In this document: positions 1,424-6,586 of the stretch, one piece after another
Layout: every line of letters starts with the position of its first letter
Numbering within the stretch: position 1 is the first letter of the stretch
Origin: an uncultured Bacilli bacterium
GTDB taxonomy: Bacteria > Bacillota_I > Bacilli_A > RF39 > UBA660
Assembly (NCBI GenBank): GCA_905236935.1
Contig: CAJOQL010000051.1
Span: 1 to 6,586 of the forward strand
Direction of reading: 5' to 3'
Length of the DNA: 6,586 bases
Translations under genes and position numbers: made by a program
Notes under the pieces: generated by a model
Seen by the model: only the letters and a program-made list of their open reading frames with translations
Told to the model about the DNA's origin: nothing
Database searches by the model: none

Positions 1424-1512
1424 TGCGGAAACCAGTTAATGAATCATTAACCGAGATTCAAGAAGTAAAACCGGTTGCCGCACATCACATTATAATAGGA
1501 AGGTTTTGTGAT
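1424..1512 (-). ncRNA. Unidentified hairpin RNA between tRNA-Ala and tmRNA
   Basis: A long interrupted stem joins TGCGGCAACCGG (1482-1471) to CTGGTTTCCGCA (1435-1424): 11 of 12 positions pair on the minus strand, one as G-U. That G-U would be an A-C mismatch on the plus strand, so the minus strand is the likely RNA. Inside lies the perfect palindrome TTAATGATTCATTAA (1450-1436). Just upstream, ATCACA/TGTGAT (1512-1507 and 1489-1484) can pair across a 17-nt loop. No tRNA fold or known RNA family was recognised. It could be a small RNA, a processing spacer or a decayed RNA gene. Confidence 0.45.
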
Positions 1513-1553
1513 ATAGGTAGTTATAAGCAAATTTTCATTTACATATAACCTAT

Positions 1554-1628
1554 TGGTGGAGCTACTGAGAGTCGAACTCAGGTTTCCAGCTTGCAAGGCT
1601 AGCACACTAGCCACTATGTTATAGCCCC
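1554..1628 (-). tRNA. tRNA-Ala (anticodon UGC)
   Basis: Acceptor GGGGCTA/TAGCTCC (with the G3-U70 pair that alanyl-tRNA synthetase recognises), D-stem ACAT/GTGT, anticodon stem CTAGC/GCTGG with loop CTTGCAA (anticodon TGC), T-stem CTGAG/CTCAG with loop TTCGACT, A73 and an encoded CCA. It starts one base beyond the two-part element that trails the permuted tRNA, so both are on one transcript. Confidence 0.96.
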
Positions 1629-1629
1629 A

Positions 1630-1767
1630 TATATACAAGACACTTTTTACGCACTCTACCAACTGAGTTAACTAGGAAACCAGACAATGTATTTCCCAGT
1701 GTAGGATTCGAACCTACGACTTCGGGTTTAGCAGACCTAATAAAAAGATGCTGTATGTGTCTTTTTC
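1630..1767 (-). repeat. Two-part leader element, copy 2, enclosing the permuted tRNA
   Basis: The 5' part AGAAAAAGACACATACAGCA (1767-1749, within a base) precedes the tRNA 3' half. The 3' part AAGTGTCTTGTATATA (1645-1630) follows the tRNA 5' half. AAGACAC (1763-1757) pairs with GTGTCTT (1643-1637), and CTTTTTA (1747-1741) with TAAAAAG (1649-1643); one G is shared. These helices bring the two open ends of the permuted tRNA together, leaving about nine unpaired bases on one strand and TTA next to the junction. Copy 1 at 191-259 lacks the tRNA. Confidence 0.7.
1650..1737 (-). tRNA. Circularly permuted tRNA, anticodon GCU (Ser codons AGU/AGC)
   Basis: The gene order is reversed. The 3' half (positions 29-73, 1737-1693) comes first: GGT, loop CTGCTAA, ACCCG, AAGTC, T-arm GTAGG-TTCGAAT-CCTAC, ACTGGGA, A73. 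After a 15-nt linker comes the 5' half (positions 1-28, 1677-1650): TCCTAGT, TA, D-arm ACTC-AGTTGGTA-GAGT, G, CG. Joined as CG+GGT they give a perfect anticodon stem CGGGT/ACCCG. The acceptor pairs TCCTAGT/ACTGGGA with one G-U. The halves total 28 plus 45 nt, exactly 73. Neither half alone has a partner in normal order. CCA is not encoded. Maturation would require joining the outer ends and removing the linker, as known for permuted tRNAs of red algae and a few archaea. The body is a short-variable-loop type resembling tRNA-Asn, although bacterial tRNA-Ser normally has a long variable arm. Confidence 0.85.
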
Positions 1768-1774
1768 TATATTT

Positions 1775-1803
1775 ATTATATTATATTTTTTTATAAAAAT
1801 CAA
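1775..1803 (-). promoter_or_regulatory. Promoter of the permuted tRNA - tRNA-Ala - tmRNA unit
   Basis: TTGATT (1798-1803), 17-bp spacer, TATAAT (1775-1780). Transcription should begin near 1767, at the two-part leader element. No other matching promoter is seen until 300, so this unit may extend through tmRNA and the 161-aa gene to tRNA-Ile. Confidence 0.85.
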
Positions 1804-1829
1804 ATAATTTTTATAATCTTAAAAATCTA

Positions 1830-1906
1830 TGGCTGCCGAGGTATGACTCGAACATACAAACTCCAAGGTCAAAGCTTGGTGGCTCTACCAGTTCGCCTAC
1901 TCGGCA
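1830..1906 (-). tRNA. tRNA-Gln (anticodon UUG)
   Basis: Acceptor TGCCGAG/CTCGGCA, anticodon stem CCAAG/CTTGG with loop CTTTGAC (anticodon TTG), T-stem GTATG/CATAC with loop TTCGAGT, G73 and an encoded CCA. The D-stem is short (GGC/GCC). It begins eight bases after the stop codon of the 115-aa gene and has no promoter of its own. An all-AT inverted repeat ATTTTTA/TAAAAAT just downstream could end the transcript. Confidence 0.95.
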
Positions 1907-1914
1907 ATAAATAC

Positions 1915-2262
1915 TTAAGTCGGCATTTTTAATTTTTTGATAATTTCTACTTTTGCAACCCATTGACCAATAGGAAAAGTAATATATTTTCCACCAAAAA
2001 TTGCAATTTTATCTGTTTTTAGATTATTAACAATAGTATCAATAATATATTTCTTATCATTATCTATTTTATGAGTGTCATTGGAACCCATAGCCATAGC
2101 TTTTGTATATTTAATTTCATATATTTTATTATTAATAATAACTAAATTAAAAATACCATCGCCAGTTAAGGAATATTTAGTTTTATATGTAGGAAAAATT
2201 GATTGTAAAAATTTTCTAAAAGGATATTCAGTTTCCCAAAAATTTTCATATCTTATTTCCAT
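1915..2262 (-). CDS. Hypothetical protein, 115 aa, possible PD-(D/E)XK nuclease-like core
   Basis: Two ATG codons lie near the start. The one at 2262-2260 is seven bases behind AAGGAG, while the one at 2268 is only two bases away, so 2262 is preferred. Residues about 35-52 read TGDGIFNLVIINNKIYEIKY: a strand with an acidic residue followed by a strand ending E-x-K. This resembles the metal-binding core of PD-(D/E)XK nucleases. The resemblance is an inference from pattern only; no family is recognised and the protein is short for an active nuclease. It has its own strong promoter (2295-2323), and tRNA-Gln follows eight bases behind its stop codon, so mRNA and tRNA probably share a transcript. 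Codon use is AT-rich like its neighbours. Confidence 0.8.
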   Translation of the reverse strand: MEIRYENFWETEYPFRKFLQSIFPTYKTKYSLTGDGIFNLVIINNKIYEIKYTKAMAMGSNDTHKIDNDKKYIIDTIVNNLKTDKIAIFGGKYITFPIGQWVAKVEIIKKLKMPT

Positions 2263-6098: not shown

Positions 6099-6586
6099 AT
6101 GGAACAATATTTACAAAAGCAATATGATAATTTTTGTAATCAATATGGAGAAGATAGAATTTTATGAGTGGCGGCAGATCCTGGTTATAGTTCAGTTATT
6201 CCAGATTCGTTAATTACTATACCAGCAACCGCATGTTATTTACCTACAGAAGAAGAACTATATAATATATCTTTTTATCAAAATACTATTGATATACGAA
6301 GTTTAATTGATTCCACTTTAAATATGAAATCAGATTTATTTAATTCAATACTATCTCCTTATAAAATTATCAATCCTAAATATCAAGATATAATTAATGA
6401 TGAATTTTTTACATATTTAAAAATTATTATATTAGATAATGATGATATTATAATTAATAAAGTAAAAAATATTATTAAAAATCTTATTGAAAATAATATT
6501 AACAAAATTTCAAAAGAGCAAGAAATATTAACAATATTAACAAAAACCGAATTAAAAGTTTTAAAATATATAATTAAAGATTTTAA
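6099..6586 (+). CDS. Hypothetical protein, N-terminal 162 residues (runs off window), one in-frame TGA
   Basis: ATG 6099 is preceded by GAAAGGAA and by a strong promoter. After 22 codons the frame meets TGA at 6165-6167 (DRIL-W-VAADPGYSS) and continues open to the window end. A GTG directly after the TGA has no ribosome site, so read-through as Trp is preferred. The N-terminal 60 residues are mixed (VIPDSLITIPATACYLPTEE). The rest is rich in Asn, Ile and Lys and looks helical. No domain was recognised and the C-terminus is missing. It is the only supported plus-strand gene and may open a rightward operon. Confidence 0.82.

Follow-up and report, generated by a model that had tools for sequence, protein, structure and literature searches.

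A permuted tRNA-like domain on a conserved bulged handle: a probable Y-RNA-like gene with a predicted Ro60-like DUF2828 partner

In the parts of the literature drawn on here, the bacterial Y RNA YrlA is described as an end-closing stem carrying transfer RNA (tRNA)-like D, T and acceptor arms, bound by Rsr and PNPase and modified by DusA and TruB (PMC8394870); it has been proposed as a competitive inhibitor of anticodon nuclease (PMC7790460), and a TROVE protein with a tRNA-like partner is mentioned for jumbo phages (PMC7824862). An end-closing stem that carries D, T and acceptor arms in permuted order is also found as an element in a 6,586-nucleotide (nt) stretch of contig CAJOQL010000051.1, filed under an uncultured Bacilli bacterium; this whole stretch is called the window below. 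A first-pass annotation had read the element as a circularly permuted tRNA gene. We consider it probable that it is a Y-RNA-like gene, in which the permuted tRNA-like domain sits on a bulged helix (the handle) with a Ro60-like DUF2828 protein as its predicted binding partner, and that its RNA is an unspliced tRNA mimic and not a precursor. At the level of sequence, the following are established: the permuted domain, the handle and its recurrence at a second site of the window, the covariation, and the association of such handles with DUF2828 genes in relatives.

The element occupies 128 nt of the minus strand (1636-1763), on which all its parts lie. A 45-nt 3' half (1737-1693) precedes a 15-nt linker (1692-1678) and a 28-nt 5' half (1677-1650), as the first-pass annotation had it, and the 73-nt sum of the halves is folded by ARAGORN as tRNA-Ser(gct) with seven acceptor, four D, five anticodon and five T pairs, which bears out the intact arms and the five-pair anticodon stem claimed earlier. 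Along the strand, the upper anticodon arm (GGT / loop CTGCTAA / ACC, 1725-1737, with GCU at 1732-1730) is followed by CG (1723-1724), the 3' strand of the lower anticodon stem, by the T arm GTAGG-TTCGAAT-CCTAC (1701-1717) and by the acceptor 3' strand ACTGGGA (1694-1700). The linker (1678-1692), which lacks CCA, caps the acceptor stem; beyond it come the acceptor 5' strand TCCTAGT (1671-1677), the D arm ACTC-AGTTGGTA-GAGT (1653-1668) and the second CG (1650-1651), the 5' strand of the lower anticodon stem and terminus of the 5' half. The full unit (1763-1636) extends beyond the two halves described before and reads AAGACA-CATACAGCAT-CTTTTTA-TTA-[1737-1693]-linker-[1677-1650]-TAAAAAG-TGTCTT-G. 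Its flanks had rightly been seen as complementary: AAGACA(C)/(G)TGTCTT and CTTTTTA/TAAAAAG form two stacked helices, with a one-sided bulge containing the conserved ACAGCA (1749-1754). The outer helix pairs AAGACA (1758-1763) with 1642-1637, where TGTCTT is followed by a conserved G (1636-1642 together), and the inner helix pairs CTTTTTA (1741-1747) with TAAAAAG (1643-1649). The handle interrupts the anticodon stem in its 5' strand, after nt 28. The permuted signature of T arm, seven-pair acceptor stem and D arm occurs once in the window and in none of 500 dinucleotide-shuffled windows, both strands being searched. A second element (197-254, minus), with a promoter-like TTGATT-17-TAAAAT at 300-272, has the same handle and no tRNA; it encloses the hairpin AATAT-TTGGGAT-ATATT. 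Around the permuted element lie a transfer-messenger RNA (tmRNA) and tRNAs Ile, Ala, Gln, Met and Cys. An exact 27-mer of the T-arm region had no match in IMG/VR, and blastn of window positions 1500-1960 found none among named phages.

The window DNA is likely part of a bacterial-virus genome. A protein encoded in it led, as a query, to five related viral contigs, two of which had already been reached through the handle motif (L642, the contig of locus L056, and L641, the contig of L044). L642, of 144 kilobases (kb), is collinear with the window and, as in the window, has its permuted element between tRNA-Gln and tRNA-Ala. Both sides have changed in six of the seven acceptor pairs, one of the four D pairs and one of the five T pairs; every other pair in the comparison, which left out the inner helix, is the same in both, and pairing is nowhere lost. 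The minimum-energy fold of the L642 element is the full expected architecture. In L641, an element after tRNA-Gln has its T arm before its D arm, with an acceptor stem too short for the stricter cargo count given below. The first-pass annotation had suggested looking for the same order in related genomes, where a normal contiguous gene would have told against it, as would reads showing an assembly artefact; the L642 copy is permuted at the syntenic place, and this shared order makes an assembly artefact very unlikely. Phage tRNA arrays often rearrange, which speaks for a decayed or rearranged tRNA gene. Against decay and artefact alike stand, however, the syntenic copy with its compensatory changes, the 41 permuted members described below and the empty count in 500 shuffles; since the permuted element is conserved, we regard this explanation as refuted, with a negligible residual probability.

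The handle itself defines a much larger set. A scan of IMG/VR with AAGACAYATACAGCA returned at least 120 loci, of which 39 of 120 contained strict handles, that is, WAGnnn, 1-5 nt, ACAGCA[AT] and later the reverse complement followed by G, a pattern present in both window elements; many of the IMG/VR handles enclose tRNA-like cargo amid tRNA genes. A genome scan gave at least 119 stretches, chance 16-mers included, with a strict handle in 50 of 119 loci. After all scans and the addition of two phages, the set comprised at least 291 distinct members from 134 loci with 33 outer-stem types; all member counts are lower bounds, and the members are related, so that they represent neither independent observations nor population frequencies. 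The bulge motif ACAGCAA was found outside the query sites in 71 WAG members (first 240 loci and the window), compared with a mean of 1.8 for 40 letter-permuted 7-mers; the two highest of these, CAGCAAA (33) and AACAGCA (18), are overlapping versions of the motif itself, and the third highest reached 3. The seventh handle pair, which played no part in selection, is Watson-Crick in 264 of the 275 members with a standard spacer; when partners were re-dealt 2,000 times, the mean was 198.6 and the highest count 211. Roughly 290 candidate relatives in viruses and bacteria have the same helix. We found no existing name for these handle RNAs in the literature searched, and an earlier description outside that literature is possible.

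What the handle carries varies widely. The cargo is a permuted tRNA in 41 members and a normal-order tRNA in another 41; in 29 a T arm is present but the order could not be assigned, and the other 180 lack a T arm. Under a separate T-loop test, 38 of 178 T-loop-less members contain an anticodon-like hairpin of 5 base pairs and a 7-nt loop (100 shuffles: mean 5.0, maximum 9), most commonly with the loops CTTTTAA (10, Lys UUU) and CTGTTAA (7, Asn GUU). By eye, hairpins with loops like UGGGGAUU / AUGGGAUU and UUAGGCGAA also recur among T-arm-less members (L046, L487, L533, L599, L600). Because the same handle carries permuted, normal-order, hairpin-only or tRNA-less cargo, the flanks do not serve as a joining device for swapped halves. 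Permuted tRNA genes of algae and archaea, the subject of two papers (PMC3978253, PMC3218864), share with the window element a leading 3' half, intact arms and pairing flanks; here, in contrast, there is no sign of joined ends, and the flanks are a family-wide handle found on unpermuted cargo as well.

Were this a true permuted tRNA gene, its transcript would be cut and the ends joined into a 73-nt tRNA(GCU) decoding AGY codons. The joined halves are indeed complete for ARAGORN, and a standard anticodon arm can be completed from both halves in 24 of the 41 permuted members, as opposed to a mean of 0.5 and a maximum of 3 in 200 shuffles. Under the rule used, however, the arm cannot be completed in 17 of the 41, including the syntenic relative L056/L642, whose anticodon loop is read as 8 nt. 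The opening lies as in the window or at a neighbouring position in L099, L331, L352, L371, L382, L471 and L508, and in the anticodon loop or after the stem in other members. The acceptor strands are separated by 3-12 nt in 40 of 41 members, by 3-8 nt in 32 and by at most 6 nt in 22; the window has the longest gap of all, at 16 nt (discriminator plus 15). Serine tRNAs do not usually combine a GCU anticodon with a short variable arm, and all five ordinary window tRNAs encode CCA in the DNA, whereas the permuted copy does not. RtcB, considered as the joining ligase in phages, was rejected, being found in none of 39 viral and phage records (other ligases were not searched). Together with the shared handle on unpermuted tRNAs, lone hairpins and tRNA-less cargo, these points leave a true permuted tRNA gene improbable. 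Hence, of the original claim, the order, arms and flanks stand and are conserved in L642, but a later joining of the halves into a tRNA is not supported.

Permuted tmRNA is a two-piece RNA whose acceptor linker is cut out. A two-piece tRNA could arise likewise, with the acceptor linker excised, the halves held together by the handle and the free 3' end chargeable. N-CCA stands directly after the acceptor strand in 8 of the 41 permuted members (binomial p 2e-7, kinship ignored), and the window's long gap would suit such excision. Yet a gap of at most 6 nt, as in 22 of 41, hardly leaves space for CCA and a cleavage site, and the CCA may be a relic of descent from ordinary tRNA genes; we give this explanation, too, only a slim chance. 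Compared with permuted tmRNA (Rfam RF04321), the handle RNAs share the permuted tRNA-like part and, in some members, CCA behind the acceptor strand; they differ in having no visible tag frame and, in 32 of 41, a gap of 3-8 nt, and the window has a separate tmRNA gene. A permuted tmRNA was itself matched, at 64.3 bits, at 6477-6635 (minus) of L208, a phage contig that also contains Ro60 and a YrlA-like permuted RNA.

In relatives, both viral records and bacterial loci, the handles are linked to DUF2828 genes. Clusters of open reading frames (ORFs) within 4 kb of handles were of DUF2828 type in 32 of 50 loci, of WYL type in 19 and of RtcB type in 12, and DUF2828 was present in four of the five contigs related to the window, the fifth being a 22.7-kb fragment. 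A looser handle sub-type, AGGATAG/AGAATGT ... ACAGCA ... CTATCCTGTT-like, is likewise accompanied by DUF2828 (minus strand, counted along the reverse complement: L174 3013; L187 733, 2484; plus strand: L225 82 to 4306; L152 1128, 1313). The handle-bearing Bacillus phage FADO, whose recorded host is B. subtilis BEST7003, encodes the DUF2828 protein fado_144 beside a handle. DUF2828 is predicted to have a Ro60 fold. A profile of 52 DUF2828 proteins matched PDB sequences weakly (a vWA protein at E 0.32, Ro60 1yvp at 0.51, two TROVE proteins at about 0.7); it was the fold comparison, not the profile search, that decided for this fold. We infer that the window's phage, too, has a gene for a DUF2828 protein and that the handle is bound by this protein. 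The literature search found no text tying DUF2828 to tRNA-like RNAs, Ro60 or RtcB; judged by titles and abstract openings, the DUF2828 literature found consists of plant papers, and other descriptions may exist. TROVE was rejected as the handle partner: it occurs in 7 of 37 viral records, all YrlA-type without handle, in none of 30 handle-type viral records and in none of another 34 records, of which 32 are bacterial genomes, and none of the seven loci of TROVE records contains a strict handle.

These counts bear on whether the element is simply an ordinary YrlA RNA whose partner would be a classical Ro60 (TROVE) protein. Rfam calls no tRNA at the permuted element and matches YrlA (RF02553) across the tRNA-like domain at 1725-1647 with 28.6 bits (E 0.0048 in the window, 1.5e-4 in a 201-nt search). 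As YrlA is a known bacterial Y RNA with a permuted tRNA-like domain and Rfam matches it here, if below threshold, such domains are not without bacterial precedent, contrary to the impression given by the first-pass annotation. In the Rfam model, too, the T arm precedes the D arm and a loop bridges the acceptor stem, and further common features are that a handle locus often contains several handles, a Ro60-fold partner and, in some bacteria, RtcB nearby. The anticodon arm can be completed in six of seven TROVE-type permuted phage RNAs, so that a kept anticodon arm does not set the handle RNAs apart from these; among the solutions shown first, L197, L208, L171 and L150 open as the window does, as does L234 with a less tRNA-like loop. 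The match nevertheless falls below the gathering score of 69 and leaves model positions 1-22 and 88-114 unmatched; the handle's ACAGCA bulge and WAG/CTWG ends have no counterpart in the model, the partner is DUF2828 and not TROVE, and the same handle occurs on normal-order tRNAs or hairpins only. An ordinary YrlA RNA therefore seems improbable. The Salmonella rsr-yrlBA-rtcBA RNA repair operon (PMC7790460) resembles the bacterial handle loci in combining a regulator, Y-type RNAs (here handle RNAs), a Ro60-fold protein and RtcB; the handle loci differ in their clusters of WYL, DUF2828 and RtcB type, and RtcB was not found in the 39 viral and phage records.

Returning to the Y-RNA-like gene, we envision the following course. 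A promoter-like TTGATT-17-TATAAT (1775-1803, minus), ending 11 nt upstream of the element, would start an RNA of about 130 nt; by itself this site is weak evidence, because such sites are no more frequent in the window than by chance (21 found, 17.9 expected). The 5' and 3' ends of the RNA would pair as the handle, to be bound by the Ro60-like protein, and the handle would leave the tRNA fold through the anticodon stem 5' strand, between nt 28 and 29. The linker would cap the acceptor end while the anticodon loop remains exposed, and the tRNA-like domain, staying unspliced, would be recognised as a tRNA by other proteins. On a Ro60-like ring, the mimic could offer its elbow and anticodon loop to modification enzymes, anticodon nucleases or an exonuclease partner, acting as a tether or decoy. 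The decoy idea is best fitted, judging from cargo sequences, by the anticodon-like hairpins of the T-loop-less members.

Several observations, besides the kinship of the members, weigh against this reading. ViennaRNA favours another fold for the window element (-34.2 versus -24.8 kcal/mol for cloverleaf plus handle), in which the anticodon region pairs with the D loop; we rejected this helix, energetically best in the window, as not conserved, its mean length over the 41 permuted members being 5.46 compared with 5.82 in shuffles, with values of at least 7 in 8 of 41 and the longest, 9, in the window copy. In the relative L644, no clear element separates tRNA-Gln from tRNA-Ala. DUF2828 is absent from four handle-type viral records, one of them 94.6 kb long; the gene was not seen for the window's own genome, so that the linkage rests on relatives; and since the match in the L044 contig falls into two short frames (89 and 192 amino acids) that lie 1.3 kb apart, DUF2828 may be broken or interrupted there. 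A few members are chance matches inside coding sequence (e.g. L486, L598). Finally, CCA follows the acceptor strand in 8 of the 41 permuted members, which is what a processed tRNA would need; given these remnants and the complete anticodon arms, some processing is conceivable.

No unknown splicing reaction would then be needed to account for swapped tRNA halves in a bacterial-type replicon, and DUF2828, a domain of unknown function, would be joined with a large set of tRNA-like RNAs. This suggests that Ro60-type ribonucleoproteins (RNPs) with tRNA mimics extend beyond the pairs of TROVE and YrlA. It is conceivable, if on balance doubtful, that phages and bacteria share a second, unrecognised Ro60-type RNP, in which a DUF2828 ring would hold tRNA mimics as interchangeable cargo, to decoy or sense anticodon nucleases and other defences that attack tRNA. 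Its cargo library, which we propose with similar hesitation, would comprise permuted tRNAs, normal-order tRNAs and bare anticodon stem-loops (Lys UUU, Asn GUU) on one handle. The cultured Bacillus phages FADO and vB_BcoS-136 carry testable cases. Searches for permuted tRNAs in prokaryotes will match such mimics and call for caution.

Elsewhere in the window, the frames at 6099-6584 (plus) and 5169-4357 (minus) are open only if TGA is read as tryptophan, which suggests genetic code 4, and 3555-3145 (minus) encodes an Hsp20 small heat-shock protein. Three segments (23-185, 1411-1544 and 2337-2600) lie mostly outside longer ORFs, have about 75-86% identity to related phage contigs and received no Rfam name; they are possibly further structured RNAs. 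A sub-threshold match to a Twister-like ribozyme (41.6 bits) was seen at 1222-1302 of L031, and a ROOL RNA (292 bits) lies at 3293-3916 of L002, a contig that also carries handle RNAs.
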